Positions 30,206 through 46,092 are shown, numbered from the stretch's first letter. The stretch is DNA of 64,000 nt from Adlercreutzia caecimuris B7 (GCF_000403355.2 NZ_KE159646.1:2283561-2347560); one strand, 5' to 3'. Numbers and translations: made by a program. Notes: generated from the letters alone by a model not told the origin.

Positions 30206-31567
30206 TTAACACCTGGAAAGCTGTACTTCGGTTTTGAAGCCGCCTTCGACGGGAGCCGTAAAGGAGAGATTTCCCTGGTGCGCCCTTATCACGCGGGACG
30301 CGATTTGCAGTCCGAGCCCGTGGCGAAGGTCGAGGTTTTCGTCGGTGCTGCTCGCGTGTTCCTGAGATTTAAGAAGGGCGAGCAGGCCTTCTCCGGCCGC
30401 TCCCGCCCCGTCATCTTCAATGGTGATGAGCACATGCTCATCGGTCGCATCCAGCCCTATGCGTATGCGGCAGCCTTGCGGGTTGTGCGTGACGCTGTTC
30501 TGCAGGATATTCCCTATCGCCCGCCCGAGCAGGCGCTCATCGCACTCAACGGCCGCCTTTTCGGCCTCCTGTTCGATTTCCATCTCATAAGAATACCTCG
30601 TTTCCGGGCATGCGTTGATCGCATCTGCCACCGCCTTGCGGACGATTTTCGAGGGCTTCGCTTTCGCCTTATGCAAGGGCTGCATGTCGTACTCCAGCTG
30701 GGAGGCAAGATTCAGGTCGTTGATCAGGTTGCTGATCTTGGCGCTCTGCGCGCTGATAAGGGCAGCGCGGCCAGACGCATCCGATGGGACAGAGGGGTCG
30801 CTGGCGATGCGCTCCGCATTTCCCATGATGAGGGTGAGCGGGGTGCGGATGTCATGGGATATGCCGGCGATCCAGTTCGCGCGCGCCTCATTCTGCTTGG
30901 CGATGAGGTCGGACGCGCGAGTCACGCTCTCCGAAAGGTTCGCAAGCGTCCCCTTCGGCAGGGAATCCGTCGCCTTGCCCGTTCCCAGTGCCTCGATGGC
31001 ATCCTCGATGGGCTCCAATCCAGACAGAGTGCGCCTCTTTGAGAGCCAATAGGCTAGAAAGAGGCAGCCGACATCGAGGAACGCCATCACCACGAGGAAA
31101 GACGGGAGAGCTTGCACCGCCCGCATGGGGATATAGTTGCCCGTGATCTTCATGTAGCTGTCCTTGGGATAGCCCAAGACCAGCAGGCCGGCGTCAGTGA
31201 CGCGCGTGAAAACAGGATAGTCGGAGATATATCCCTTCGAGAAGCGCGCGACGTCCTGCAGAGTGTAGTGGAGGGGAACGCCCTCGGGAGCGTCGACCGA
31301 CCACGAGCAGTCCCCATCCGGCTTTATGAACAGCGCCCATAGGCCGTTTTCCCGTAGCTTGCTCTTCGCCTCCGGAGACGCCTCCGATGCGCTTGTTGTG
31401 TCCTCAATGGCATGAAGCATGGCCGCGGGCGAGGCATCTCCGGCCTCATGGGCGACTGCTCCGGAGAAGAAGATGCCGAACGCCGCCGCATTGAACGCCA
31501 GCAAAGCGACCATCAGGGCGGCGAAGAACGCGAGGTTTCTCGCGATATAGGGGCGCAGGGACTTCAC
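30206..31567 (-). CDS. sensor histidine kinase
   Basis: Membrane kinase of 453 residues. Helix one is about residues 10-35, an extracytoplasmic domain of about 110 residues follows, and helix two is about 152-176. The H box is GISHDIRTPL with His238, followed by N box (AIGNILQNSVTHN), G1 (IEDDGAGA) and G2 (HGLGLQI). The short extracellular domain and SHDIRTPLT resemble kinases that sense cell-envelope antibiotics or lantibiotics. It starts 4 bp after the response regulator, so the two form one operon, transcribed away from the ABC exporter they probably control. Confidence 0.92.
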   Translation of the reverse strand: MKSLRPYIARNLAFFAALMVALLAFNAAAFGIFFSGAVAHEAGDASPAAMLHAIEDTTSASEASPEAKSKLRENGLWALFIKPDGDCSWSVDAPEGVPLHYTLQDVARFSKGYISDYPVFTRVTDAGLLVLGYPKDSYMKITGNYIPMRAVQALPSFLVVMAFLDVGCLFLAYWLSKRRTLSGLEPIEDAIEALGTGKATDSLPKGTLANLSESVTRASDLIAKQNEARANWIAGISHDIRTPLTLIMGNAERIASDPSVPSDASGRAALISAQSAKISNLINDLNLASQLEYDMQPLHKAKAKPSKIVRKAVADAINACPETRYSYEMEIEQEAEKAAVECDERLLGRAIGNILQNSVTHNPQGCRIRIGLDATDEHVLITIEDDGAGAAGEGLLALLKSQEHASSTDENLDLRHGLGLQIASRVIRAHQGNLSFTAPVEGGFKTEVQLSRC

Positions 31568-31571
31568 GGCA

Positions 31572-32273
31572 TCACCTGCAAACCATCAGCTTGTACCCGA
31601 GTCCCTTGCAGGTGATGAGCGACACAGGATGCGAGGGATCGCGCTCGATCTTCTCCCGCACGCGCCTGATGTGGGCATTGAGGGGGTTCTCGTACCCGAA
31701 TGCGTCCCCGCCCCACAAGGCATTGCAAATGGCGTCGGTTGTGACCACCTTGCCCTGATTGCGGGAAAGGATCTCCAGCAGCGCGAACTCTTTTGCCGTG
31801 AGCGAGACCGGGCCGTCTTCGCGCACGGCTTCGGCCCTGTCGAAATCGATCACGCAATAATCAAGTTGGACCTTTGGCTCAACCGCGGGGTATGACCTCC
31901 TGAGTACTGCATAGACGCGCAGCAAGAGCTCCTGGGGAAGGAATGGCTTGGGAATGTAGTCGTCAGCCCCCAGGCCCAGGCCCGATATCCTGTCGATGGG
32001 CTCGTCTTTCGCCGTGAGGAATATCACGGGGATGTCGGACGACTTGCGCACCTGCCGCATGAGCGAGAACCCGTCGCCATCGGGAAGCATCACGTCTAAG
32101 ATTGCCAGCTCCGGATTAACTTCATCGAAGCGCTCAAGCGCGTCCTTTGCATTTGCTGCGGTGAATATCTCCCCGAACCCCGCGTCGGTCAGGATATCTG
32201 ACACGAGGGCAAGAAGCTCTGGCTCGTCGTCCACGAGCAAGAGCCTTTTGCTGTGCAAGAGAGCGTAATCCAC
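31572..32273 (-). CDS. OmpR-family response regulator
   Basis: DNA-binding response regulator of 233 residues. Receiver domain with DDEPE near residue 15 and the phospho-acceptor Asp60 in LAILDVMLPDGDGF; Lys in LTAKDEP. The C-terminal winged helix has LTAKEFALLEILSRNQGKVVTTDAICNALWG and the RRVREKIERDPS helix. Its start faces the ABC exporter gene across a 142-bp gap that carries three direct repeats of GTCAGG type, the likely binding site. Confidence 0.93.
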   Translation of the reverse strand: MDYALLHSKRLLLVDDEPELLALVSDILTDAGFGEIFTAANAKDALERFDEVNPELAILDVMLPDGDGFSLMRQVRKSSDIPVIFLTAKDEPIDRISGLGLGADDYIPKPFLPQELLLRVYAVLRRSYPAVEPKVQLDYCVIDFDRAEAVREDGPVSLTAKEFALLEILSRNQGKVVTTDAICNALWGGDAFGYENPLNAHIRRVREKIERDPSHPVSLITCKGLGYKLMVCR

Positions 32274-32297
32274 GAGGTGCCTTTCTCAAACCTATCC

Positions 32298-32314
32298 ACT
32301 GTACAGAATACAGT
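32298..32314. promoter_or_regulatory. ACTGTA-N5-TACAGT palindrome
   Basis: Perfect inverted repeat ACTGTA, CAGAA, TACAGT in the divergent promoter region, 25 bp upstream of the response regulator start. Candidate operator for a dimeric regulator. Confidence 0.35.
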
Positions 32315-32338
32315 CCCGCGCCTGGGCCGTACGCGAAA

Positions 32339-32377
32339 GTAAGGAAAAAGTCAGGTGCGCAATCGAGGAATGTCAGG
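32339..32377. promoter_or_regulatory. direct-repeat site upstream of ABC exporter
   Basis: GTAAGG (32339), GTCAGG (32350) and GTCAGG (32372) are spaced 11 and 22 bp, that is on one face of the helix, as OmpR-family regulators bind. The site lies 39-77 bp before the ATPase start and would let the adjacent regulator activate the exporter operon. Confidence 0.45.
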
Positions 32378-32415
32378 CGGGGCGAATACCTTGATCTCCG
32401 TCGAAAGGAGCAACG

Positions 32416-33213
32416 ATGAAACATGCGCAACCAGGGCGTTCGGGGCGCCATCCTCTCATCATCGAGACCCGTAATCTGACGAAGCGCTACAAGAATTTCG
32501 TCGCCGTCAACGATGTCTCAATGCATGTGCGGAAGGGGAGCATCTACGGGTTCCTCGGGCCCAACGGAGCGGGAAAGTCAACGACCATGAAGATGCTGCT
32601 CGGCCTCACGGCGCCCACATCGGGCGCCTTCGAGATCGATGGCATGCGCTTTCCGGACAGCCGGGTGGCGATCCTCAAGGAGGTCGGCTCCTTCATCGAG
32701 TCCCCCTCTTACTACGCCAATCTCACCGGAAGGGAGAACCTCGATATCATCCGGAGGATACTGGGCCTGCCTGCGAGCTCCGTGGACGAGGCCCTGGAAC
32801 TCGTGGGCCTGTCGGAGTTCGGCGGCCGCCTCGCGAAGAAGTACTCGCTTGGCATGAAGCAGCGGCTGGGGCTTGCCGAGGCCCTTCTTGGAAGGCCTCC
32901 GATCCTCATCCTCGACGTGCCGACGAACGGCCTTGACCCTGCCGGAATACACGAGATCAGAAACCTCGTCAGATCGCTGCCGAAGGCCTTCGACTGCACG
33001 GTGCTCGTCTCTTCCCACATGCTGTCGGAGATCGAGCTTGTGGCTGACGATATCGGCATCTTGAACCATGGGACGATGCTCTACGAGGGAAGCCTCGACA
33101 ACCTGCGCGCCCAGGCGCTTGCCTCGGGCTACGCCGCCGAGAACCTGGAAGAGCTGTTCTTGGCGATGATAGAGCAGGACAACCTCTTGCGGAAGCAGAG
33201 GGCCGTCCTATGA
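32416..33213 (+). CDS. ABC transporter ATPase, lantibiotic-immunity type, lacking Walker B Glu
   Basis: Nucleotide-binding subunit of 265 residues. The N-terminal text LIIETRNLTKRYKNFVAVNDVSMHVRKGSIYGFLGPNGAGKSTTMKMLLGL (Walker A GPNGAGKST), the Q-loop FIESPSYYANLTGRENL and the signature YSLGMKQRLGLAEAL match the BcrA/NisF/SpaF group. Walker B, however, reads LILDVPTNGLDP: the catalytic Glu is Val168 (codon GTG at 32917). In this group the residue is normally Glu. The H-loop His (VSSHML) is intact. It is followed by two overlapping or near permeases. Confidence 0.9.
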   Translation: MKHAQPGRSGRHPLIIETRNLTKRYKNFVAVNDVSMHVRKGSIYGFLGPNGAGKSTTMKMLLGLTAPTSGAFEIDGMRFPDSRVAILKEVGSFIESPSYYANLTGRENLDIIRRILGLPASSVDEALELVGLSEFGGRLAKKYSLGMKQRLGLAEALLGRPPILILDVPTNGLDPAGIHEIRNLVRSLPKAFDCTVLVSSHMLSEIELVADDIGILNHGTMLYEGSLDNLRAQALASGYAAENLEELFLAMIEQDNLLRKQRAVL

Positions 33214-33935
33214 GCGCGCTGTCGATCGAGCTGCGCAAAGAGCGCAGGACGGGCATCGTTTTCGTGCTCTTGGCGATCGGCGTCTTGGGAGCCCTTTACG
33301 CATGCGCGAACTTCCTCGTCCGCGGAGAGACGCTGCTCGGCATGCCGCTCGACCCGATGGACATCCTGCTCACGCAGCTCTACGGGATGATCGTCGTCAT
33401 CAACATGTTCGGGATCATCGTGGCAGCGTGCATGATCTACGGCATGGAGTTCAGGGGCGATGCCATCAAGAAAATGCTCGTGATGCCCATGAAGATGCCT
33501 TCGATGTACGGGAGCAAGTTCCTCGTCATCACTGTTGGGCTGCTCATCGCCGTCGCGATGCAGAACGGAGTGCTCGCCCTGATTGGAGCGAGCAGTCTGC
33601 CCGAAGGGGCGTACGATCCCGGCGCTGTGATCGCCTTCGCCGGCTACTCGCTCATCACCAGCATGCCCGTTCTCACCCTCATGCTGCTCGTGTCGTCGCG
33701 CATCGAGAACATGTGGATACCCCTCGGCATAGGCGTGGCGGGCTTCTTGAGCGCCATGGCGCTCGCCAGCGTCGACTCGCCCCTCGTCCTAGCCCACCCC
33801 TTCGTCCTGATGCTGAAGCCGGCGATCGCCATGAGCGCCCAGCCGGACTTCCTGGCCATCGCGGTTTCGGCGGCGCAGACGGTCATCTTCCTTGCGGCCG
33901 GGCTCTGGCTTTCCGGCCGCGAGCGCTACGAGTAG
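33210..33935 (+). CDS. lantibiotic-immunity type ABC permease, subunit 1
   Basis: Membrane subunit of 241 residues with six predicted helices. The text SIELRKERRTG at the N-terminus, GMEFRGDAIKKMLVMPMKMPSMYGSKFL (coupling region) and SSRIENMWIPLGIGVAGFL are typical of the MutG/EpiG/NisG-like group of ABC-2 permeases. Overlaps the ATPase gene by 4 bp. Forms a heterodimer with the next gene in related systems. Confidence 0.85.
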   Translation: MSALSIELRKERRTGIVFVLLAIGVLGALYACANFLVRGETLLGMPLDPMDILLTQLYGMIVVINMFGIIVAACMIYGMEFRGDAIKKMLVMPMKMPSMYGSKFLVITVGLLIAVAMQNGVLALIGASSLPEGAYDPGAVIAFAGYSLITSMPVLTLMLLVSSRIENMWIPLGIGVAGFLSAMALASVDSPLVLAHPFVLMLKPAIAMSAQPDFLAIAVSAAQTVIFLAAGLWLSGRERYE

Positions 33936-33944
33936 GAGGCAGTT

Positions 33945-34709
33945 ATGGGATTTACAAGCCTTATCGGAATCGAGTTCATGAAGGTGCGCAGGTCGAAGAT
34001 CGTCCCGCTCATCTTCATCGCGCCCGTCCTCGTGGTCATATCGGGGGTGGCGAACTTGAGCCGCTACTTCACCCCCGAGTACACAAACGCATGGCCCGCG
34101 ATGTTCGTTCAGAGCGCGCTCGTGTACGCGTATTACCTGCTCCCGCTCAGCATGATCGTCGTGTGCGTGATGATTGCGGGCAGGGAGACGTCGCACAACG
34201 GCATCCTGAAGATGCTCGCGCTCCCCGTCAGCCGCTACAAGCTCTCCCTGGCGAAGTTCGTGGTCGTCGCGTTCTTCCTTCTCATGGAGATCGCCGTGTT
34301 CTTCGCGGTCTTCGTGATCGCCGGGCTCATCGCCACCCAGATGATGGGGGTGCGGGAGGCATTGCCCATCGGCTACCTGCTGAAATCCTGCGTGGGCCTT
34401 TTCCTGACCATGCTGCCCGCCGTTGCCGCCATGTGGGCGATAACGGTGGTCTTCGAGAAGCCCCTCATCACCGTCGGGCTCAACCTGCTTCTCGTCATCC
34501 CGAGCGTTCTCGTCGCGAACACCCCCGCCTGGATAGCTTATCCGTACTGCTATAGCGGCTACCTCGTCTCGTGCTCGCTCCATGACTTCACGACCGGAAT
34601 GGCATCGACCGCGTTCCAGCCGTTCCCGTTCGTCCTCTTCGCGGCGCTGCTCTTCGCGGCGTTCCTCTCATTGTCGGTGCTTCGATTCGGAAAAAAGGAA
34701 ATGAGGTAA
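33945..34709 (+). CDS. lantibiotic-immunity type ABC permease, subunit 2
   Basis: Membrane subunit of 254 residues with six helices. Same topology as its neighbour: SLIGIEFMKVRRSKIVPLIF at the start, then MIAGRETSHNGILKMLALPVSRYKLSLAKFVV. AGGAGGCAG precedes the ATG. Together with the ATPase it should make an exporter or membrane-removal pump for an antimicrobial peptide; the ligand is unknown and no precursor gene of a lantibiotic is nearby. Confidence 0.85.
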   Translation: MGFTSLIGIEFMKVRRSKIVPLIFIAPVLVVISGVANLSRYFTPEYTNAWPAMFVQSALVYAYYLLPLSMIVVCVMIAGRETSHNGILKMLALPVSRYKLSLAKFVVVAFFLLMEIAVFFAVFVIAGLIATQMMGVREALPIGYLLKSCVGLFLTMLPAVAAMWAITVVFEKPLITVGLNLLLVIPSVLVANTPAWIAYPYCYSGYLVSCSLHDFTTGMASTAFQPFPFVLFAALLFAAFLSLSVLRFGKKEMR

Positions 34710-35356: not shown

Positions 35357-36826
35357 ATGGATCTAGCCAAGCTCGAAACCTACAAGGAGAATAACCGCCT
35401 CGAAGCCAAGGCAGCCCAAGGAGGCTTGCCGAAGAGCATCTGGGAGACGATCTCCGCCTTCGCCAACACGGAGGGCGGCATCATCGTGCTCGGAGCCAAG
35501 GAACGCAGGGACGGCACCTTGGAGGTAGTTGGGCTGGGGGATGCCGACAAGATGCTCGACGATTTCTGGAACGCCGCACATAGTCCGGACAAGCTGTCCT
35601 GCTGCGTAATGTCCGACAGGGATGCCAACATCGAGAGCGTCGATGACAAAGAGCTGATCGTCGTAGAGGTGCCGCGCGCCGACAGGCGCCTGAGGCCGAT
35701 CTACGTGAACGGCAATCCCGTCACGGGCACGTATAGGCGCGACCATAAGGGCGACTACCGCTGTGCATCGAACGAGATACAGGCGATGTACCGCGATGCC
35801 TCGGACGAACCCGTGGACACCCGCATACACGAGAACCTGACTGTAGACGACCTATTTGCGGAGACGATCGGCTCCTACCGCAGAAGCTACGAGCTGCATC
35901 ACAGCGCCCACGCATGGACGGGCTTGCCCGACGAGGAGTTTCTCTGCAGAATCGGAGCAGCGAAAGTCGGCAGCGACGGGATGGTTCACCCGACGAGCGC
36001 GGGCCTGCTCATGTTCGGAGAAGAGTGGCGCATCATGGCGGAGTTCCCGCACTATTTCCTGGATTACCGTCAGGAGCTCGGAGCAGACGAGAGATGGCAG
36101 GGCAGGATCACCTCGCAGGATGACAGCTGGTCGGGTAATGTCTTCGACTTCTACCGGCGCGTCTTCAACAACATGAAACAGGCTATCAACGTGCCCTTCA
36201 GGCTCGATGAGAACAGCGAGCGCATCGACGAGACGGAGGCGCATGACGCTCTGCGCGAGGCTCTTGCGAACTGCCTCACGAACGCGGATTACAATGAGCG
36301 ACGTGGCGTGGTCTTCCTTTGGAAGGAAGATGGTTTATGCCTCTCGAATCCCGGCGGCTTCCGTGTCGGCATCGAAGACGCCTACGTCGGCGGCAATTCC
36401 GACCCGCGCAACGAGACGATGATGAAGATGTTCACGCTCATCAACATCGGAGAGCGCGCCGGAGGCGGCATTCCCGACATGGTGAAGAAGTGGACATCTT
36501 CAGGCTATGGAGTCCCCGTGCTCAGCGAGCAAGTGAACCCGGAGCGATCTACGATTCTTTTGCCCCTGGTCAAAGAGTCAGTTGGTAACGATGTCGGTAA
36601 TGTCGGTAATGATGTCGGTAATGCCAACAGCGAGGCCGTGACGACCGCAGAGCGAGTACTGCGCCTCGTCGCAGGCAATCCGAAAATTAGTGCACAGAGT
36701 ATCGCGGCTGGCTTAGGAATGAGCAAGCGACATATCGAAAGAGTGATGGCGGGTCTTCGTGATGAAGGCATCCTGATTCGCGAGGGGGGTACCCGCGGCA
36801 GTTGGGTAATAGCTAAGAACCGATAG
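35357..36826 (+). CDS. AlbA_2/Schlafen-type putative DNA-binding regulator with HATPase-like domain
   Basis: Predicted 489-residue cytoplasmic protein. The AlbA_2 domain is about residues 10-130 (ENNRLEAKAAQGGLPKSIWETISAFANTEGGIIVLGAKE; the E-x-K and N-T-xGG motifs are typical). A middle region to about 260 follows, then an HATPase_c_4-like domain (ALREALANCLTNADYNERRGV to GERAGGGIPDMV). A short GNDVGNVGNDVGN repeat (about 416-428) and a C-terminal winged helix with ISAQSIAAGLGMSKRHIERVMAGLRDEGILIREG close the protein. CTAGAAAGG precedes the ATG. Probably a transcriptional regulator; stands alone among gene relics. Confidence 0.88.
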   Translation: MDLAKLETYKENNRLEAKAAQGGLPKSIWETISAFANTEGGIIVLGAKERRDGTLEVVGLGDADKMLDDFWNAAHSPDKLSCCVMSDRDANIESVDDKELIVVEVPRADRRLRPIYVNGNPVTGTYRRDHKGDYRCASNEIQAMYRDASDEPVDTRIHENLTVDDLFAETIGSYRRSYELHHSAHAWTGLPDEEFLCRIGAAKVGSDGMVHPTSAGLLMFGEEWRIMAEFPHYFLDYRQELGADERWQGRITSQDDSWSGNVFDFYRRVFNNMKQAINVPFRLDENSERIDETEAHDALREALANCLTNADYNERRGVVFLWKEDGLCLSNPGGFRVGIEDAYVGGNSDPRNETMMKMFTLINIGERAGGGIPDMVKKWTSSGYGVPVLSEQVNPERSTILLPLVKESVGNDVGNVGNDVGNANSEAVTTAERVLRLVAGNPKISAQSIAAGLGMSKRHIERVMAGLRDEGILIREGGTRGSWVIAKNR

Positions 36827-37058: not shown

Positions 37059-37119
37059 GCGGGCGCTTGCCTCGCTAGCAGCTTGGGAAGCTCGGGCCTT
37101 ACCATTTGGCGACGCCCGC
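37059..37119 (-). pseudogene. degenerate tRNA-Gly copy (attachment-site relic)
   Basis: On the minus strand from 37119, GCGGGCGTCGCCAAATGGTA and AGGC match the 5' part of the tRNA-Gly at 19195 with one change, and the anticodon loop TTCCCAA is kept. The 3' acceptor arm CGCCCGC is present at 37065-37059, but the T arm is lost, leaving 61 bases. Upstream, TGTAAT sits where the live gene has TATAAT, and further upstream sequence resembles the integrase 3' end (ATTGTGG). It marks a second lost element. Confidence 0.65.
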
Positions 37120-37484
37120 GTGCTGTTGAATTACACGCTATTGGCTCCCATTCGTTCCGCCCAAAAGGTAAATCCACAATCTCGGAACGTCACGCCCGCC
37201 CGCAACGGTGCGCGCCCACGACCGCCCCGATGGCCGCAGGCTACGGAACCCCTGTGCTCAGCGAGCAGGTGAACCCGGAGCGATCGACCACCCTCCCTCT
37301 TAAGAAGGAGGGTGGATCAAATATCTCGTCATTTATTCCGTCAAAGTCTGAAGGAATAAACGAAGGAGTAAATAAGGGTCAGACGGGCTATTTTGGCAGC
37401 AGAGGATCCATTCCTGCTCCCCGATGGATTAAAGGAGCAGGCAGCGCGCGTTGGGCCAGTTGCGCATAGGCGAAAAACCGCTCG
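37120..37484. other. scar region with fragment of a second AlbA_2-type gene
   Basis: In one plus-strand frame the text GYGTPVLSEQVNPERSTTLPL (from 37239) nearly repeats GYGVPVLSEQVNPERSTILLPL of the AlbA_2 protein at 36508, and is followed by GINEGVNKG, a repeat type common in such proteins. The rest of that protein is absent. No promoter or intact gene visible; the stretch 36827-37058 also holds no gene. Confidence 0.6.
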
Positions 37485-39497
37485 TCATAACTCAACTGGA
37501 ACCGTTCGGCCATCCGATTTCAGAGTGGCGGAGAGCTCACCGCCTTCATAATCGACCGACAGGGCAGGCCCTTCCAACACCACCACAGCATCGGAGCCGT
37601 CTTTGGCGCAGGTGCAGACTGCATCGCCGTCCAGACGGTTGACGAAGCAAAGGCCGTCCTCGGTGAGACAGAAGCTGCGGGCGACGATGTCTCCCACGGG
37701 AGCAACTTCCCGGGTTTGGGTGTCGTAGGCCTGAAGGCGAGAATCCTCGTCTACAAAGTAAATGGCGCGACCGTCGAAGGCTATGTTGCCGCTGGCGGGG
37801 ATGGCGAGCGTCTGCACCGACCGCGTGCCCCGATCCACCTCGACGATCTTGTCGTTCACCACGAAAAAGAAACTGCGGTCGTTCAGGAAAAAACTGCGGC
37901 AATCCGGAAGAAACGCCCAGGTATCGCCGGCTGTGTAGTCGATTCCCAGCAGGGAGCGATTGCTGTCGGCGATCTGCTCGAAAATCACGTGGCGCTCCAG
38001 CGTGTCCGCATTAAGGCGCACGATGCTGAACTGGGTGAACGTGCTGTTGTAATTGCCAACCCGGTCGATGTATTGTTGGGTGCGCGAAGTAAGGTAGTAA
38101 ATGCAAGAGCCGGCCACATAGGCGCCCGTCACGGACTCACCGTCCGAAAAGGCGCCGAAAAGCGGCGATGTTTCCACGGCCATCGCTGCGCCGCCTTCGC
38201 GTTCTAAGGTGTAGGTTCGGGTCTCGTCGTCGAGCGCCACGGCAAAGCCGTCGCCTGCCACGCTTTGGGCGGCAGAGTTGTAGACCACGGTCTCGGCGGC
38301 CTCGGAAGAGCATCCGGTTACGGGCAGCAGAAGGGCGACGGCAAGCAGAAGGGCGGCCGCGGGCTTTGCCTTGCTGCCGAAACGGGGCCTTCTCTCCAAG
38401 AGCCAGCAGTTCGTGCTGCGCCGCACCGTTCCGTACAGCGCAAGCATCGTAAGCGCCGCCGAAATTCCCGCCACCAGCGCAAATTCCCACGGGGACACTT
38501 CGGCAAACACGGCGATTGCCTCCCCTCCGTCGCCCTGAGCAAAGCGGCCGCCCTCCAAGAATCCCGTGGCCAGCAAGAACGGCAGGGGAAGGGGCAGACG
38601 GAAGATGAATTGCTCCGGTAGCCCGATGAGGGGGATGAGGGTGGCAGCGGCGCCGATAAGAGCCGTCAGTGCGTACTTCCTCACTATAACCGAGGCGAAG
38701 AGGAGCAAGGCCGCGAGCATCACCGCGCCGAAGCAACGGAGGGCGGCGGCCGCTATGAACGCCTCTGCAAGGGAGAGGCTCTTCTCGCTGGTGCCGAAAA
38801 GCGGAACGCTCTGGAGGGGATAGTCCCCGTGGGGCAGCCCGTATTTCACCGTGAAGAACGTGAGCTGGAGAAGGGAGAGCGCGACACAAAGGGCAACGGC
38901 GGAACCGATGACGATGAGCACCTTGCACCGGGCGCTTGCGCGGCCCTCGGGGGTCGTGCGCAAAAGCGCGTCCATCTGGCAGGCGTATTCCGAGCAGAAA
39001 GCCGCGGTGGCCAGATACAAGACGGCCAGCAGCACCGCGAAATCCAGCGTCTGGACAGAGAGAAGCCCGGCCCAGCCGTTCGTCTCAAGGAAGTATCGGT
39101 TGGTCGGGTTCTCCGATACATAGAGGTACTGCTCGAAGGCGGCGTCGAAGCCCCGCTCGTGGGCCAGCACCTCCCCGGCCTGGGCCGCCGCACTTTCGTA
39201 ATCCTCAGCCGAGGTGAGGCCGCTGTAGTAGCTTTCCTGCGCCTCGGCACGGGCGGCTTTCGCTTCCGTGATGGCCTCGCTCTCGTCTTGAAGCCAGGCC
39301 TCCTTCTGGTCGTTCAACGCCCCGTCCAGCCTTTCCAGGCACCAGGCGTAATCGGATCGGTGCTCTTGCATGGCGATGTTCTGGGGCTGTTCGGTCGCCG
39401 CCAGCCAGACCCCGCTGACCACCAGGGCCGCCAGCAGACAGGCCAACCCTCGCTGCCCGATCATGAGCTTCTTCCATTCATAGGCGAGCACCATCAT
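37485..39497 (-). CDS. ABC permease fused to a lipoprotein-like beta-propeller domain
   Basis: Predicted 670-residue protein. Residues 1-370 are an ABC-2-type permease: helix one near 15-32, a large extracytoplasmic loop with a predicted coiled part (about 40-145), then five helices. A hydrophobic segment follows, ending in LLPVTGCSS with Cys396, a perfect lipobox, and then about 270 residues rich in beta strands (IYYLTSRTQQYIDRV, WAFLPDCRSFFLND, AIYFVDEDSRLQAYDTQTREV) like a propeller of the DUF5050 type. No start codon lies near residue 380, so it is one reading frame and not two genes. Whether the internal lipobox is processed is unknown. Overlaps the permease gene upstream by 4 bp. Confidence 0.85.
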   Translation of the reverse strand: MMVLAYEWKKLMIGQRGLACLLAALVVSGVWLAATEQPQNIAMQEHRSDYAWCLERLDGALNDQKEAWLQDESEAITEAKAARAEAQESYYSGLTSAEDYESAAAQAGEVLAHERGFDAAFEQYLYVSENPTNRYFLETNGWAGLLSVQTLDFAVLLAVLYLATAAFCSEYACQMDALLRTTPEGRASARCKVLIVIGSAVALCVALSLLQLTFFTVKYGLPHGDYPLQSVPLFGTSEKSLSLAEAFIAAAALRCFGAVMLAALLLFASVIVRKYALTALIGAAATLIPLIGLPEQFIFRLPLPLPFLLATGFLEGGRFAQGDGGEAIAVFAEVSPWEFALVAGISAALTMLALYGTVRRSTNCWLLERRPRFGSKAKPAAALLLAVALLLPVTGCSSEAAETVVYNSAAQSVAGDGFAVALDDETRTYTLEREGGAAMAVETSPLFGAFSDGESVTGAYVAGSCIYYLTSRTQQYIDRVGNYNSTFTQFSIVRLNADTLERHVIFEQIADSNRSLLGIDYTAGDTWAFLPDCRSFFLNDRSFFFVVNDKIVEVDRGTRSVQTLAIPASGNIAFDGRAIYFVDEDSRLQAYDTQTREVAPVGDIVARSFCLTEDGLCFVNRLDGDAVCTCAKDGSDAVVVLEGPALSVDYEGGELSATLKSDGRTVPVEL

Positions 39498-40711
39498 CGC
39501 AGCCTCCTTATGGGACAGTAGGTGTTTCGGGGCGAAAGCAGATAGATGGCTGCGGCAATGACGAGCCCCGCAACCAGGGAGATTGCGAGCGCTGCCTGCC
39601 AGGACAGGACGGGGAAGCCGCCGATGTCCAGAAACTCCGTTTGGGCCAGGAGGGGGCGGCCCGCCAGCAGCGAATAGGGATCGAGCGCTTTCGCCCAGAC
39701 AAAGTGGGAATAGGCCGCGCTCGCGCCGCCGATGACGAGCACGGCGGTGAGCGCGAAGTTGGCGACAAGGGGAACGAGGGCGTTTCTGCCTCGCAGCGAC
39801 ACCGCAAGCCAGACCATGCCCAAAGCCCAGAGCCCGACGCTTCGCAGCGCCGCCGCCAGCACCGCGAATTGGAGGACGCTGAGGTCGACCGGTGCCTCGG
39901 CGAAGCTGGGGATGGCGTACACCGGCAAATCCAAGCCCTCTAAGGTGCCGAAGGCGGCCCCGAAGCCCGCCAGGTCAAGCAGCGAGAACCACATGGTCAC
40001 CAGCAGCAAAAACCCGCTGGCTGCCATCAGCTTCGCGAGAACGGTGCGGCTGCCGCCATTGGGATTCGTGAGCAGCAACCGGTCCATCTGCGTTTCGCGC
40101 TCCTCCACGAAGGTGCCGGCCACGCCGTAGAGTCCCAGAAGCAGCACGAGAACGAGGGAGAAGTCGTAGTTCAGGTAGTAGTTGGCCATCTCCGTGTAGG
40201 CGAAGTCGGGCACGGTACGACCGGCGTAGATCTGGTACAGGGCGGCGCTTTCCCGCTGTTGGTACAAGGCTCCGGCCTGAGCCGCGGCCTCGGCGTTCTG
40301 GCGCGCCTTTTCCGCCACCGATGCAGCACGGTCACCATATTCGTAGCAATACTGCATGGGATCGACGAAGTACTTCTCCAGTAGATTCCGATCGCTGTAG
40401 AGGTTTCCCGTCAGGGAGTTGGCGTCGTCAGTGGCGGTGCTGGCGGTCATGTCCGCCGTGGCCTGGGCCAAAGGCTGCCACGTTGCCAGCAGCTGCTGCA
40501 CCTTTTCGGGCGTAATGGGGCCTTGGTACTGGTCGTAGAGCTGCCAGTAGACGGTGTGCCAGCTGCGCTCGGCGCTTCCGTCGGCCAGAAACGAATAGGC
40601 ATCCCACTCGCTGTAGATCTTGGCCAGGTTTATAACGCTGAACAGGACGAAGAGCACGAGAACCGATCGCCGACAGAAAAGCTTGGCGAATTCGTACCAG
40701 ACTAGGCGCAT
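39494..40711 (-). CDS. ABC-2 type permease
   Basis: Predicted 405-residue membrane protein. Helix one is near residues 15-32 (CRRSVLVLFVLFSVINLAKIY), a large extracytoplasmic loop of about 150 residues follows (predicted helical, Ala/Gln-rich), then five helices from about residue 190. The segment YGVAGTFVEERETQMDRLLLTNPNGGSRTVLAKLMA is the cytoplasmic coupling loop. Start at MRLVWYEF (40711), which overlaps the ATPase stop; a longer frame upstream lies inside the ATPase gene and is not used. Same topology as the permease half of the next gene, so they probably pair. Confidence 0.88.
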   Translation of the reverse strand: MRLVWYEFAKLFCRRSVLVLFVLFSVINLAKIYSEWDAYSFLADGSAERSWHTVYWQLYDQYQGPITPEKVQQLLATWQPLAQATADMTASTATDDANSLTGNLYSDRNLLEKYFVDPMQYCYEYGDRAASVAEKARQNAEAAAQAGALYQQRESAALYQIYAGRTVPDFAYTEMANYYLNYDFSLVLVLLLGLYGVAGTFVEERETQMDRLLLTNPNGGSRTVLAKLMAASGFLLLVTMWFSLLDLAGFGAAFGTLEGLDLPVYAIPSFAEAPVDLSVLQFAVLAAALRSVGLWALGMVWLAVSLRGRNALVPLVANFALTAVLVIGGASAAYSHFVWAKALDPYSLLAGRPLLAQTEFLDIGGFPVLSWQAALAISLVAGLVIAAAIYLLSPRNTYCPIRRLR

Positions 40712-41580
40712 GGTGCATCGCCGTCCTGGCAGAAATACAGGAACACGTCTTCCAGGTTCGGTCGCGCTGGCCGAGCCCCCGCACAGGGGCACTCGTCGCT
40801 GACGATACGAAGCGAGAAGAGGGCACCGTCCTGTTTCATGTTGCCGATGCAGCAGCGTTCGGCCAGCCGCCGGGATTGTTCCAGGTCCGCCGTTACCTCC
40901 CACACTTTGCCCGCGATGCTCTGCTCCAGTGCACTCGGGGCTCCCTGCATGAGCAGCTTGCCGCGGCGCAGCAGCAGGATTTCCGTGGCAATGCACTCAA
41001 CGTCGGGCACGATGTGGGTGGCTAGAAGGATGGTGCGCCCAGGGGCGAAGCGGGAGATAAGGTTGCGAAAGCGGATGCGCTCGCCCGGGTCTAGGCCGGC
41101 GGTGGGCTCGTCCAGCACCAGGACCTTCGGGTCGGATAGCATGGCCTGGGCAATGCCGAGCCTTTGGCGCATGCCCCCCGAAAGGGCGCCGATCTTCTTG
41201 TCCCGCGCGTCGGACAGATTCACGGTGTCCAGCAATTCCGCCGCGCGGCTTCGCGCCAAAGCCGGGGACAGGCTCTTCAGCGCTCCCATGTAGAGGAGGA
41301 AATCCCCCACGGTGAAGTCGCGGTAGAAGACCGGGTACTGCGGCATATAGCCCAAATCGGTCAGAAATGCGCGGCCCTGCGCTCCAACGTCGCGCCCATC
41401 GGCTCTCACTGTCCCGCCGTCGGCGCGCAAGATGCCCACGAGGATGCTGATGAGCGTCGTCTTCCCGGCGCCGTTTTCGCCCAGTAGCCCGAAGACGCCT
41501 TCGCCCAGCGTGGCACTGAAGTCTTTGAGGGCGTACTTGCCCTTGTAGCATTTCGCTACGTTATCGAACTGAATCTCCAT
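40702..41580 (-). CDS. ABC transporter ATPase
   Basis: Nucleotide-binding subunit, about 292 residues. Walker A GENGAGKTT, Q-loop LGYMPQYPVFYRDFTV, signature ALSGGMRQRLGIAQAM and Walker B VLVLDEPTAGLDP are all intact, as is the H-loop ATHIV. The last 70 residues are an extra C-terminal part with a CIGN/CPCAGARP Cys motif. Start at MEIQFDN (41580), with GGAG seven bases before; a TTG 12 bp upstream is weaker. It starts 1 bp after the lipoprotein gene and overlaps the permease by 10 bp. Confidence 0.92.
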   Translation of the reverse strand: MEIQFDNVAKCYKGKYALKDFSATLGEGVFGLLGENGAGKTTLISILVGILRADGGTVRADGRDVGAQGRAFLTDLGYMPQYPVFYRDFTVGDFLLYMGALKSLSPALARSRAAELLDTVNLSDARDKKIGALSGGMRQRLGIAQAMLSDPKVLVLDEPTAGLDPGERIRFRNLISRFAPGRTILLATHIVPDVECIATEILLLRRGKLLMQGAPSALEQSIAGKVWEVTADLEQSRRLAERCCIGNMKQDGALFSLRIVSDECPCAGARPARPNLEDVFLYFCQDGDAPCA

Positions 41581-41581
41581 G

Positions 41582-42754
41582 CTAGGCTCCAAAGCTGAAC
41601 GTGGCGACTGCCGTGTCGATTTCCTCTATGCCGCAGCCCAGAAGCACGATGGCGGCCTGCGCATCATCTAGAAGGATCACCTGGGGAACCCGCCCCACAT
41701 AGCGGGAGTCGTCCACCTCGATGGTCTCGGTGGCCAGAAGCTCGCCGGAGTCAACGGCATAGACCCGCACGGTGAGCACGTCGCCCAGTTCGGCGGTGGC
41801 GACGTATTTGCCCTGTTCGGACACGTAGATACCGTCCCCTCCCTCGTCGCTCGCGGAAAAGGCGAGCCGATGCGCGGCGCCGCTTGCCGCATCGACCCAG
41901 GGAAGGCTCCCGTCGACATGGGAAATCGCAGGGGGAAAGAACAGCCGGCCGTCGGCTCGCAGCATCTCCTCCACGCCCTCCGATTCCAGCCAGTCAAGCT
42001 CAAGCTCGCTGCCGTCGATGCCTATGGTTCCCCATACCGGCGCGCTGTCCTCGCCATCTCCGCTTTCGGCGGAAAAGCCGTCGCCGAAAAAGGCCACGCG
42101 GTCGTCGTCGGGGGTGAATGCGGCGCCGTTCAGCGAGGTCGCCATGCAGCTGGAGCCGCCGATGCCTTGGGCAGTGTCGAGCAGGGTAGTCAGCTGGCCG
42201 GCCGGGCGGTCGTAAAGGTAGAGGGCGCTAAGGCCTGCGATGGCCAGCCGATTCCCGTCGCTCGACGCCGCCACACAGCCGGGATCGAGCACCGGATCGC
42301 CGGACAGAAGCTCTTCCAGCGCCAGAGTTTCTTCCAGCTTCAACTCGCTGTCGTAGATGTACGCGACCGCCCCCGCATCGCCCATAACCGTGAGGACGAT
42401 GCCGTCTTTGAACGGTGCTGCGCCGAAGTCTCGCATCGGTGCCGGAGCCGGGCAGTGGGCCAGCACCGTGCCGGAAGCGGTATCGTAGAGGTACAGCTCA
42501 TCAGCGCAGACGAGCAACGTGCCCGCCTGGGCATAGGAACAGCCCGTCAGCTTTCCCTGGAAAGGCGCGCTGTCGAAAGCGAAGGAACCTGACGTTTGGG
42601 CGGGGTCGTCGTCCTTCATGACATCGGAAGCTGGCAGCGGGGCGGCCGGTGTTTCCGGCGTCGCCTTTTCGGAGTTGTCCGTTGGTGCAGGCGCGCTGCA
42701 GGCTCCCAGGACAAGCAGCGACAGGGCCAGTGCGGCGCAAAGTACTTTTCTCAT
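41582..42754 (-). CDS. lipoprotein with beta-propeller-like repeats
   Basis: Exported protein of 390 residues. The signal peptide ends in the lipobox VLGACS with Cys19, so it is anchored to the outer face of the membrane. After a Pro/Thr-rich linker the domain shows repeated strands (LLVCADELYLYDTASGTVLAHC, AYIYDSELKLEETL, LAIAGLSALYLYDRPAGQLTTLL, KYVATAELGDVLTVRVYAVDSGELLATETI), typical of a WD- or PQQ-like propeller. It sits between another lipoprotein and the ATPase and may be a ligand sensor or accessory subunit of the transporter. Confidence 0.82.
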   Translation of the reverse strand: MRKVLCAALALSLLVLGACSAPAPTDNSEKATPETPAAPLPASDVMKDDDPAQTSGSFAFDSAPFQGKLTGCSYAQAGTLLVCADELYLYDTASGTVLAHCPAPAPMRDFGAAPFKDGIVLTVMGDAGAVAYIYDSELKLEETLALEELLSGDPVLDPGCVAASSDGNRLAIAGLSALYLYDRPAGQLTTLLDTAQGIGGSSCMATSLNGAAFTPDDDRVAFFGDGFSAESGDGEDSAPVWGTIGIDGSELELDWLESEGVEEMLRADGRLFFPPAISHVDGSLPWVDAASGAAHRLAFSASDEGGDGIYVSEQGKYVATAELGDVLTVRVYAVDSGELLATETIEVDDSRYVGRVPQVILLDDAQAAIVLLGCGIEEIDTAVATFSFGA

Positions 42755-42757
42755 GAT

Positions 42758-43792
42758 CTAGGCCTCCTGGAAGAGCAGTATCGAGTTGGTTTTAAAGAAG
42801 GGCGCACCCGCGTTGTCGGCAGGCACCGCCACGCAGTAGAACGTGCTGAGCTTCCCTAACAGGGATGGGTCGATGACGCCCTCCACCACGGCCACGCCCC
42901 CTTTGCTCAGCTCTACGGCGCTCGATGCCTCTCCGTTCACCGCCATCGGCTGGTGATCGAGGAAAAAGGAGATGTTGTAACGCGCGCCGGGAGTGCCGCA
43001 CAGGGTGAAGCGCACGGCTACCGGCTCGGTAAGGGGAAGGTTGTCGAACACCGTGTCGCCATCGAGGGTGAGCGTGTAATAGATCCCGTCGTCCAGCGTG
43101 TCCATGGTTATATCCGGCCATCCCGCCTGGGCCAGGTCGTTCTCCAGGTACCGGGACGTGACCTTTTCCTCGTGCACGCTGCAGGAGGAAAAAGCCTCCA
43201 CTGGGTTCGGCGCCGTGGCGGCGGACGAAGGGGGGTCGGCGTTGAAGCGCATCTCCACACTGGCGGAAAGTGCATTGTGATACCACCCGTAGCTGGACGT
43301 GCTTTCCATGTCCGGCTGGAAGTCGGGGTTCGTGATGCTGACGATAGTCAGGTTCAGCGTGTCGCCGCTGTGCCCGGCCACCGGCTCGAAGAGGAAGGCA
43401 ATGTCTTGATCCTCTGCCGCATCGAATGTATGGCAAAAGGCATAATCGGACGATTGGCCGTCGATACGGTAGGGCTGGGGTTTCCCGTCCAAGAACAGGA
43501 GAAACCCTACACTGTCCAGGTCTCCGCTGACAGAAAAGCGATAGTCCAGGCGAAACTCTCCGCCATCGTAGGGAAACGGCTCCCTCTCACCGCTGTCGGA
43601 CAGGGGCGGATTGGCGGCCTCGTGGCTGAGCATGGCCATAAGGCTCGCGTCGTCCTGGGCTTCCTCGAAGGGGTTCGACGCATCGCTTTGCGCAGGTGCG
43701 GGAACTTCTTCCGGAATGTCGTAACCGCTGCAGGCGGAGATAGGCAGAAGAGCCGCCCCCAGCAGCATGGCCAAAATAGGTTTCATTCGCAT
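42758..43792 (-). CDS. lipoprotein of the transporter operon
   Basis: Predicted 344-residue exported protein. The lipobox PISACSG has Cys21. The mature part is acidic at first (IPEEVPAPAQSD), then beta-rich (FRLDYRFSVSGDLDSVGFLLFLDGKPQPY; VAVRFTLCGTPGARYNISFFLDHQPM), like a double immunoglobulin-like fold. The start is set by AAAGGAGG seven bases before the ATG; the frame extends 42 bp further upstream without need. First gene after the TCS and preceded by a 20-bp site also found ahead of the response regulator, so it is probably the first gene of a regulated operon. Confidence 0.82.
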   Translation of the reverse strand: MRMKPILAMLLGAALLPISACSGYDIPEEVPAPAQSDASNPFEEAQDDASLMAMLSHEAANPPLSDSGEREPFPYDGGEFRLDYRFSVSGDLDSVGFLLFLDGKPQPYRIDGQSSDYAFCHTFDAAEDQDIAFLFEPVAGHSGDTLNLTIVSITNPDFQPDMESTSSYGWYHNALSASVEMRFNADPPSSAATAPNPVEAFSSCSVHEEKVTSRYLENDLAQAGWPDITMDTLDDGIYYTLTLDGDTVFDNLPLTEPVAVRFTLCGTPGARYNISFFLDHQPMAVNGEASSAVELSKGGVAVVEGVIDPSLLGKLSTFYCVAVPADNAGAPFFKTNSILLFQEA

Positions 43793-43833
43793 ACAGGACC
43801 TCCTTTGCGTCTTCTGCTCCAGCCTAGGGCGCA

Positions 43834-43853
43834 AAAGTCAAAAACCGGTCAAG
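43834..43853 (-). promoter_or_regulatory. direct-repeat operator, copy 2 (lipoprotein operon)
   Basis: AAAGTCAAAAACCGGTCAAG on the plus strand, that is CTTGACCGG and TTTTTGACTTT on the minus strand, two TTGAC repeats 11 bp apart, 42-61 bp before the lipoprotein start. It is identical at 18 of 20 positions to the site at 45915-45934 before the response regulator. Confidence 0.7.
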
Positions 43854-43918
43854 CGGCGAAAAAAAATTTCGGAGATGCTGAAGGAGCGCCGGTGAAGATC
43901 GACGGCAGCGGTTTTGCG

Positions 43919-45208
43919 TTAGCTTTTCTCGACGCCTCCTTGGGGGCGGTTGACGGCAATCAGCGCCTTTACGCAGGCGCCCGTATCGCCGTTCGACAGC
44001 TCCAAGGATCCTCCCAGCTTCCTGCAGAATATCCGGCTCATGGCAAGCCCCAGCCCCAAATGGCCGCCGGAGGCATCTTCGGTGAAGAACAAGGCGTCCC
44101 TCTTTCGGAGCGCTGTCTCTGAGAAGCCGGGGCCGTCATCGGTTACCGTGGCCGCTAGCAGTTCTCCTTCCAGGTGGAACTCAAGGACGATCTCGCGGCG
44201 GGCGAAGCGCTGGGCATTGCCCACGAGGTTTTCGAGAATGCGGTACAGAAGTTCGCCGTCGAAGACAGCTGTGCGCTCCGGCACGGAGATGCGATAGGTC
44301 AGCTGCGCGGAACTGCCGCGGCACAGCACGGCCAAAGAATCGCCCAGCCCCTCCAGAAACCCCGGAAGGCTTACCTCTTCGAGGCGAACCTCCACCTCCT
44401 CGATGGCTCCCACCTCGCGCATGGCTTCGGTGTAGCGCCCCATGCGGTCGGCGGCGGATTCCAGGTTGGCAAGCGCCCGATCGAGCTCCTCATCGGTCAG
44501 AAGACCCGCCTTGCGGCTTTCTTGCAAGTGCTCCACATAGCCTCCCATGATGGCGATGGGGTTGCGCAGATCGTGGGCCACGGATGCCTGGAGGGCTCGG
44601 CGCTCTTCCAGCATGTCCCACAGAAGGCGGTTGTTGTCGACGAGGGCCTGACGCATGCTCTCGAAGGCAACGCAGAGCTGGCCCAACTCATCGGTGGAAG
44701 CGCAGCGCACCCGAAAGTCGAGGTCTTGGCGGCGGACGTGGGCGGTCGCGTCGGCGAGCGCGCGGATGGGAGGCTCCAGCTTCTTCCGGTAGAGCCATTG
44801 CCCCGCCAGGGCGATGCCGAGGATGGCGAAGAGAAGCGGCAGCCCGACCATGGCCACCTGCGAGGCGCGGTAGGCGGCTTTCGCCTTATCCGTGAGCATC
44901 GAGAAGCTCGAGTCTATGCGGTCGATGGTGTAACTTGCCGTTTGGTCGGGATCGCCTTCCGCGCCGTCCTGGACAAGACGGCCGAGCGACTGCGCCTGTC
45001 CGCCGATCTCAACTCGGGTGGTCGCTTCCGAGACCGTGCCGTCGGCCGCGGTGATCCTTTGGGTGAGCCAGGCCTCGTTGGAATCTGGCAGGATGGATTT
45101 CTGCAGCTGGCTGCAGCCGAAGATCGCGAGGCCGCTGGCCAGAGCAACGGCGAGCATGGTCACCGCCACGGTTCGGGCGAACTCGCCTTTGAGGGACTTC
45201 TTCTTCAT
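43919..45208 (-). CDS. sensor histidine kinase with HAMP domain
   Basis: Membrane kinase of 429 residues. Helix one is about residues 12-33, an extracytoplasmic domain of about 85 residues follows, helix two is about 117-139, then a HAMP linker (about 140-192). The H box is SVAHDLRNPI with His212. N box (ILENLVGNAQRFA), G1 (VTDDGPGF) and G2 (GGHLGLGLAM) are intact. The start MKKKSLKGEF overlaps the regulator stop by 4 bp. It would sense a wall- or peptide-borne cue and drive the downstream lipoprotein/ABC operon. Confidence 0.93.
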   Translation of the reverse strand: MKKKSLKGEFARTVAVTMLAVALASGLAIFGCSQLQKSILPDSNEAWLTQRITAADGTVSEATTRVEIGGQAQSLGRLVQDGAEGDPDQTASYTIDRIDSSFSMLTDKAKAAYRASQVAMVGLPLLFAILGIALAGQWLYRKKLEPPIRALADATAHVRRQDLDFRVRCASTDELGQLCVAFESMRQALVDNNRLLWDMLEERRALQASVAHDLRNPIAIMGGYVEHLQESRKAGLLTDEELDRALANLESAADRMGRYTEAMREVGAIEEVEVRLEEVSLPGFLEGLGDSLAVLCRGSSAQLTYRISVPERTAVFDGELLYRILENLVGNAQRFARREIVLEFHLEGELLAATVTDDGPGFSETALRKRDALFFTEDASGGHLGLGLAMSRIFCRKLGGSLELSNGDTGACVKALIAVNRPQGGVEKS

Positions 45209-45879
45209 GCCTTCCACCGGTACCCCATTCCCCAAACCGTCTCAATGGGCTCGCTGCCGCAGGCCTCCGAGAGCTTCTGGCGTATTTTGCGCACGTGCTC
45301 TTTGACGACGCTGGCATCCCCTTGGCCGTCGATACCCCATACCGCCGCGTAAATGCGCTCGCGGTCGAAAACCTGGTTGGGGTGAGATGCCAGGAAATCC
45401 AAGATGTCGAACTCGCGCTTCGAGAAGGTTATTTCCCGATCCCCGGCGAACACCTTCCGCTGGGACCGATTGATGAGAAGGCCCTGCCCGGCCACCACTT
45501 CCGATGTCTGGCGCCCCCGGGCCTCCCGGCGCAGATGCGCCTCGATGCGCGCCGTCAGCTCTCGCAGGCTGAAGGGCTTCGTGATGTAGTCGTCCCCGCC
45601 GACTGCAAGGCCGTCAATCTTGTCCTGCTCGGCGATACGCGCTGTAAGAAACAAAATAGGGCAGCCTATGTGGTTCCTGATGGTCTGGCACAGTTGCAGC
45701 CCGTCTGTCCCCGGCATGCCGATGTCCAGCAAGATAAGGTCGGGCTTCAAGCCCAGCTTCGCCAGGGCCTCTTCGGCGTTGTTGGCCTTGCAAACCAAAT
45801 ATCCGCGCTGGGTCAGGTGTGCGTCCAGCAGGTCGGTGAGCATGGGCTCGTCATCAACCACGAGAATCTTTTGGGTCAT
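45205..45879 (-). CDS. OmpR-family response regulator
   Basis: Predicted 224-residue regulator. Receiver with DDEPM, Asp52 in LILLDIGMPG and Lys in ITKPFS; winged helix with ITFSKREFDILDFLASHPNQVFDRERIYAAVWG. GGAGGCGAC precedes the ATG at 45879. It is followed by its kinase with a 4-bp overlap. The 20-bp direct-repeat site 36-55 bp before its start is repeated before the lipoprotein operon, which suggests autoregulation and co-regulation. Confidence 0.93.
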   Translation of the reverse strand: MTQKILVVDDEPMLTDLLDAHLTQRGYLVCKANNAEEALAKLGLKPDLILLDIGMPGTDGLQLCQTIRNHIGCPILFLTARIAEQDKIDGLAVGGDDYITKPFSLRELTARIEAHLRREARGRQTSEVVAGQGLLINRSQRKVFAGDREITFSKREFDILDFLASHPNQVFDRERIYAAVWGIDGQGDASVVKEHVRKIRQKLSEACGSEPIETVWGMGYRWKA

Positions 45880-45914
45880 GCTGTCGCCTCCAATCTTACG
45901 AATCATAAGACGGG

Positions 45915-45934
45915 AAAGTCAAAAAACTGTCAAG
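45915..45934 (-). promoter_or_regulatory. direct-repeat operator, copy 1 (two-component operon)
   Basis: AAAGTCAAAAAACTGTCAAG on the plus strand, that is CTTGACAGTTTTTTGACTTT on the minus strand: two TTGAC repeats 11 bp apart, typical spacing for OmpR-family dimers. On the same strand TTGACT could double as a -35 for a TAAGAT -10 about 18 bp later. Confidence 0.7.
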
Positions 45935-46092
45935 CCCGAGCAGCCGAGGCGGCTTGGGGCCGGAGGGCTGGGGCAACCGTTACAATTATGTGGCCTCGAT
46001 AACAGTTTGGAAGGCACGGTGGAGGCTTCGGCCCGTTCGTGGTTTCCTAAGGAGGACGACTGCACGATCCTACGCAAAGGAGCCCCATTCCC

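Follow-up and report, generated by a model that had tools for sequence, protein, structure and literature searches.

What is controlled by a two-component system whose operon continues into two lipoproteins and an ABC transporter, and against what would such a system act? The question is raised by seven genes of Adlercreutzia caecimuris B7 that occupy 45879 to 37485 on the minus strand of the 64,000-nucleotide stretch analyzed here (the window). They are arranged in the order response regulator (RR), sensor kinase (HK), two lipoproteins (LP1 and LP2), ABC ATPase, and two permeases (P1 and P2). All seven components named in the original prediction were found, and most, as it had proposed, overlap their neighbors or lie within a few bases of them; the exception is the ~130 bp between HK and LP1. 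RR (45205–45879, minus; 224 aa) is an OmpR/PhoB-family response regulator with a receiver and a winged-helix domain (PF00072, 5e-28; PF00486, 1.2e-22). Its start was assigned to the ATG at 45879, preceded by GGAGG, because an upstream ATG overlaps the -10 element. HK (43919–45211, minus; 430 aa) has a HAMP-HisKA-HATPase organization and an extracytoplasmic sensor of ~85 residues between its two transmembrane (TM) spans.

LP1 (42758–43792, minus; 344 aa) carries an N-terminal lipobox, ISAC, ending at Cys21. The AlphaFold2 model (pLDDT 75.5) contains two predicted Ig-like beta-sandwich domains, and its Foldseek matches are Ig/FnIII-type proteins at low TM-score. LP2 (41582–42754, minus; 390 aa) has the lipobox LGAC with Cys19. 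One of the lipoproteins had been described as propeller-like; no tool result supports this for LP2, and a propeller is better supported for the C-terminal part of P2. The ABC ATPase (40702–41580, minus; 292 aa; ABC_tran PF00005, 1.2e-29) resembles the DrrA, GldA, and LanF models, each below its cut-off. P1 (39494–40711, minus; 405 aa) is an ABC-2 permease with six TM spans that gave a weak match to ABC2_membrane in Pfam and matched no NCBIfam model. P2 (37485–39497, minus; 670 aa) joins an ABC-2 permease with six hydrophobic spans (residues ~1–365) to an extracytoplasmic beta-propeller-like domain (residues ~400–670). The permease cores of P1 and P2 are homologous yet distinct, with the six spans placed alike (hhalign 95.9%), and the large extracytoplasmic loops predicted in both are present, at ~149 residues in P1 and ~114 in P2. 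Searches of Pfam and NCBIfam with LP1, LP2, and P2 gave no significant curated family match, and comparison of the same three proteins with the sequences of solved structures gave empty or noise-level results.

Relatives of single components were also seen. LP2 is duplicated in tandem in eight Clostridia loci (L070, L074, L075, L076, L079, L080, L084, and L088), where the copies have diverged and each is about 40–50% identical to the window LP2. Standalone LP1-like lipoproteins occur in another family of the same order (G040, G387, and G397), mostly in unrelated contexts. In a contig from another family of that order (L117:156–3367), LP1-like genes and incomplete copies of a related ABC ATPase alternate, an arrangement that supports a link between LP1 and the transporter. 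A separate RR/HK/ABC module at L067:9024–12689 (minus) encodes an ATPase 46% identical to that of the window and a 432-aa permease, with no lipoprotein gene seen; it is possibly a cousin system.

P2 has an unusual joint. After the six spans, a positively charged stretch leads into a seventh hydrophobic segment that ends in a lipobox, and the beta-rich domain follows. This internal lipoprotein signal sequence spans residues 370–396 (38310–38390, minus) and terminates in PVTG-Cys396. It has the charged n-region, the hydrophobic core, and the [LVI][ASTVI][GAS]C motif of signal peptidase II substrates, with P or S at -3 in some rows of the alignment. Cys396 is invariant in the 34-row P2 alignment, and the lipobox is present in all 38 P2 relatives examined. 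Residues 366–391 are 22% identical to the Clostridia proteins, compared to 57% and 53% on the flanking sides. Judged from the alignment, the segment is conserved in the way expected of a signal peptide selected for function and not for sequence. An invariant cysteine behind so poorly conserved a stretch suggests that P2 may be cut by signal peptidase II, and cleavage may yield two products, a permease and a lipoprotein with the propeller. If both ends of the six-span permease lie inside, the seventh segment would be oriented like a lipoprotein signal. The fuller proposal, which we regard as evenly balanced, is that P2 is a natural polyprotein in a phylum-crossing resistance system, in which Lgt and signal peptidase II separate the six-span ABC permease from a propeller lipoprotein at the internal lipobox to give a fixed 1:1 supply of permease and surface receptor.

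In its predicted structure, the C-terminal beta-rich domain of P2 is most like beta-propellers. The P2 model is of low confidence (pLDDT 59.8, pTM 0.39), and its permease part was therefore not interpreted. Derivation of this third lipoprotein from a duplication of LP2 was considered and rejected, for profile comparison shows no homology between LP2 and the P2 propeller, which align in their signal peptides alone. A P2-like permease of 376 aa in G040 lacks the propeller, indicating that not every member of the wider family has the fusion. Neither the module nor internal lipoboxes were found described in the literature searched.

The seven genes lie within a conserved block with sharp ends (37434–45943, minus) that recurs, between different flanks, in six further Eggerthellaceae genomes. 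By blastn, the boundaries fall at 37434/37437 and 45942/45943 in four loci, at 89–98% identity; in L036 the block begins at 37481, and in L038 its P2 end is cut short and the identity is 82%. The shared DNA stops about ten bases outside the first TTGAC of the operator preceding RR and just past P2, and the flanks vary from genome to genome. The abrupt ends and unrelated flanks identify the block as a horizontally moving cassette. Among 140 genomes of the family, relatives of LP2 and P2 were found in eight or nine that are scattered over genera (P2 was matched in eight, one of them weakly), and seven genomes carry the system once weak partial matches are excluded. P2 is 92–98% identical in five other genomes, including other genera, and 77% identical in a sixth; other species of the same genus are without the cassette. 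A scan of named genomes placed it in Adlercreutzia mucosicola, A. muris, A. murintestinalis, Parvibacter caecicola, and two uncultured Eggerthellaceae, and at 33 loci in Clostridia with a P2 identity of 52–58%. The Clostridia carriers include Lachnospiraceae, Oscillospiraceae, Anaerotruncus, Acutalibacter, and Flintibacter muris, and the median DNA identity of their ATPase-P2 block is 90%. Many carriers come from mouse-gut collections.

Complete seven-gene loci with the order kept number 31 (6 Eggerthellaceae and 25 Clostridia) and span two phyla; five loci cut by contig ends lie outside this count. A further complete locus, L087, has an LP2 of just 36% identity. Frequent separation of the genes in relatives would speak against a single system, and just two loci, L068 and L072, are without a local RR and HK; both retain the operator before LP1. 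A large serine recombinase is encoded directly upstream in L068. No P2 relatives were found in plasmid records, and the ATPase had no match in viral contigs.

The DNA around and within the cassette points to its function. At 30206–34709 of the window lies a LanFEG-type lantibiotic-resistance module that includes an HK and an RR of its own. Its ATPase matches TIGR03740 at 1e-73 (LanF, 32416–33210; 247.7 bits, under the model cut-off of 309.75), and a permease at 33945–34706 matches TIGR03732 at 1.4e-12. The same module adjoins the seven-gene cassette in three further Eggerthellaceae, A. mucosicola, A. muris, and Parvibacter caecicola, at 96–98% protein identity, and is apparently a co-travelling cassette. 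Between the two in the window is a gene for an AlbA_2/HATPase_c_4 protein (35357–36826); a short ORF at 37083–37469 repeats part of its C-terminal sequence and is likely the remnant of a second copy. Among the Clostridia, LanFEG genes lie within 10 kb of the cassette in two loci and BceAB-type modules in several others; no LanFEG or BceAB gene was seen in the flanking DNA examined at most Clostridia loci.

In the Clostridia cassettes, the space between HK and the operator of LP1 is a slot whose gene content varies. Its cargo includes VanZ (L077, 1.1e-21), an Rce1/CPBP-like protein (L086, 4e-18), two types of GNAT (L062, L063, and L076), DUF6609 (L073 and L089), and an uncharacterized 117-aa protein (L061, L065, L070, L075, and L079). 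The 3' end of HK is duplicated after the first cargo gene in L073, suggesting recombination at the HK end. VanZ confers resistance to lipoglycopeptides and lowers their binding (PMC7146870). This slot, the mobility of the cassette across two phyla, and the internal lipobox of the fusion go beyond the original prediction.

Judged from the LanFEG and BceAB neighbors and the VanZ- and Rce1-like slot genes, the cassette most likely confers resistance, on induction, to a wall antibiotic or an antimicrobial peptide. The neighboring modules are often antimicrobial-peptide-defense transporters and count for an envelope-defense role; slot genes such as GNAT are not antibiotic-specific and weigh against resistance. 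A search for LANC_like (PF05147) in the seven carriers found none. The cassette is thus not the self-immunity of a LanC-dependent producer (other types of producer fall outside this test), and if it confers lantibiotic resistance, that resistance is acquired. We think it rather probable that the cassette is a self-contained, horizontally moving, inducible system of cell-envelope protection, whose substrate is likely an antimicrobial peptide or a cell-wall antibiotic encountered in the rodent gut.

The transporter could instead serve envelope upkeep, moving a lipid, a lipoprotein, or a wall intermediate, with the kinase reporting general envelope damage and resistance arising as a side effect. 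The best solved relatives of the ATPase are ABCA lipid transporters, NosF, and LptB, which makes a lipid or lipoprotein substrate possible and counts against a peptide or antibiotic, and a surface propeller with Ig-like lipoproteins could scaffold envelope material. We nevertheless consider upkeep unlikely, since a mobile cassette of such patchy occurrence in the family fits accessory resistance better, and the neighboring modules and slot genes also speak against it.

Uptake of a nutrient or peptide is less probable still. The lipoproteins adjoin an ABC transporter and a binding-like domain is fused to a permease, so that the lipoproteins could be substrate-binding proteins and the two-component system a nutrient sensor. 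The importers OpuA and GlnPQ, in which binding domains are fused to the permease, carry like P2 an extracytoplasmic domain on the permease chain. In P2, however, permease and domain are linked by a conserved lipoprotein signal sequence whose lipobox is intact, and the propeller-like domain does not have a binding-protein fold. The Ig-like domains likewise differ from periplasmic-binding folds, and the families that the permeases resemble are ABC-2 (exporter-type), not BPD_transp importers.

Resistance to an envelope compound can be set beside three known systems. LanFEG transporters with LanI and LanRK (for example NisFEG/NisI, SpaFEG/SpaI, and CprABC) share with the cassette one ABC-2-type ATPase, two dissimilar permeases, one or more lipoprotein partners, and their own OmpR-type two-component system. 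As in LanFEG-type transporters, a single operon of the cassette encodes one nucleotide-binding protein together with two different ABC-2 permeases, and LanFEG-type systems are known from non-producers (PMC4239024). Its permeases are much larger than those of LanFEG, with outer loops of 114–149 aa, and besides LP1 and LP2 it has a third lipoprotein, which is joined to P2. P1 and P2 did not match the LanE or LanG models, and the ATPase scored 148 bits against the lantibiotic protection model TIGR03740, below the cut-off of 309.75. By analogy, the cassette would work like LanFEG/LanI with a dedicated two-component system (PMC4239024), yet it fails the LanFEG model tests. The BcrAB(C) bacitracin transporter is similar in its ABC-2 efflux and in the size of its ATPase. 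BcrB is a single permease of 200–250 aa (PMC4239024), whereas the cassette has two, of 405 and 670 aa.

BceRSAB resembles the cassette in placing a two-component system beside an ABC transporter in Gram-positive bacteria for defense against envelope compounds. The cassette has two ABC-2-like permeases and no FtsX-type permease, in place of the single 620–670 aa permease (BceB). Bce kinases are short-loop proteins without an extracytoplasmic input domain, whereas ~85 residues separate the TM spans of HK. These two features rule out a BceRSAB identity and, with the LanFEG comparison, bear out the expectation that the layout departs from both BceRSAB and classical lantibiotic immunity. They also make it very improbable that the transporter itself signals to the kinase as a BceRSAB-type flux sensor, an idea that the pairing of a two-component system with an ABC transporter in one cassette, sometimes adjoining BceAB-type modules, would otherwise favor.

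The regulation of the resistance-like cassette was examined through its two operators. Operator 1 (45915–45934, minus; CTTGACAGTTTTTTGACTTT) contains two TTGAC half-sites 11 bp apart, start to start. Ten nucleotides after the second half-site is a -10 element, TATGAT (45902–45907, minus), before RR, with no -35 element at normal spacing. Operator 2 (43834–43853, minus; CTTGACCGGTTTTTGACTTT) lies at an equal 10-nt spacing from the -10 element TAGGCT (43821–43826, minus) before LP1. The two operators are identical at 18 of 20 positions, as predicted, and the 20-bp site was observed twice in the window against a chance expectation of 0.01. TTGACN6TTGAC occurs three times in the 2.96-Mb genome, twice within this operon. 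A stricter motif has exactly two copies per genome in the seven Eggerthellaceae carriers, both inside the operon; genome-wide it has none in four non-carriers, and a control pattern scored zero. Nine of ten Clostridia genomes searched hold the two sites in an intact cassette, and in the tenth (G408) the RR site is slightly different. G417 has a second operator pair beyond that of the cassette.

Across relatives, TTGAC-N6-TTGAC precedes RR in 30 of 31 loci and LP1 in 34 of 34, at nearly constant distances from the start codon (54/53 nt for RR and 60–62 nt for LP1). The -10 element, which varies (TATGAT/TATAAT for RR; TATGCT/TATACT/TAGGCT for LP1), stays 10 nt past the second half-site, two RR sites reading one base off. 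In the seven Eggerthellaceae, 30 of 32 columns are identical from the LP1 site to its -10 element, compared to 29 of 60 just upstream. The promoters look activator-dependent, since neither half-site has the spacing of a -35 element, and the fixed 10-nt spacing is, on these alignments, as expected for an OmpR/PhoB-type activator. The box is a direct repeat with an 11-bp period. OmpR/PhoB proteins bind a 7-bp motif with a 4-bp spacer (PMC4832192), and the period fits their tandem dimers. That the repeats are merely -35-like elements is scarcely credible: TTGAC does resemble the sigma-70 -35 hexamer, but the spacing to -10 is 9 or 20 nt and not ~17, and the pair is conserved across phyla and found nowhere else in the Eggerthellaceae carrier genomes. 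Phylogenetic footprinting and the confinement of the site to carriers thus strongly support the proposal that one regulator controls both units. In Clostridia, an unscored, terminator-like hairpin of the type GCCGCCCAA...TTGGGCGGC lies between HK and the LP1 operator and is consistent with two transcripts. Four viral contigs match the operator pattern. A second operator pair at L081:1179–2259 (minus) lacks cassette genes and flanks an ORF for a 280-aa 4Fe-4S membrane protein (1262–2104); it looks like a cassette that has decayed or been put to another use.

Gene order, operators, promoter geometry, horizontal spread, and the conserved internal lipobox are directly established, and a mechanism can be proposed. 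HK would detect the compound outside the cell and phosphorylate RR, which would bind both TTGAC-N6-TTGAC sites as a tandem dimer and substitute for the missing -35 element. RR would thereby switch on its own operon and the lipoprotein-transporter operon. LP1 and LP2 would bind the compound at the membrane surface, as would the P2 propeller, possibly released as a third lipoprotein by a cut at Cys396. The ATPase-P1-P2 transporter would then remove the compound from the membrane.

The cassette is a compact, transferable, resistance-like module that is unnamed by the family models used and is common to Actinomycetota and Clostridia. Its HK-LP1 slot is open to further genes, among them VanZ, Rce1-like proteins, and acetyltransferases. 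The regulon is so self-contained, with two operators, that induction, binding, and substrate are directly testable. The internal lipobox bears on a wider question, whether signal peptidase II is able to act on a lipoprotein whose start lies within a polytopic membrane protein. If so, the P2 polyprotein would give its carriers equal amounts of a permease and a surface receptor from one gene.
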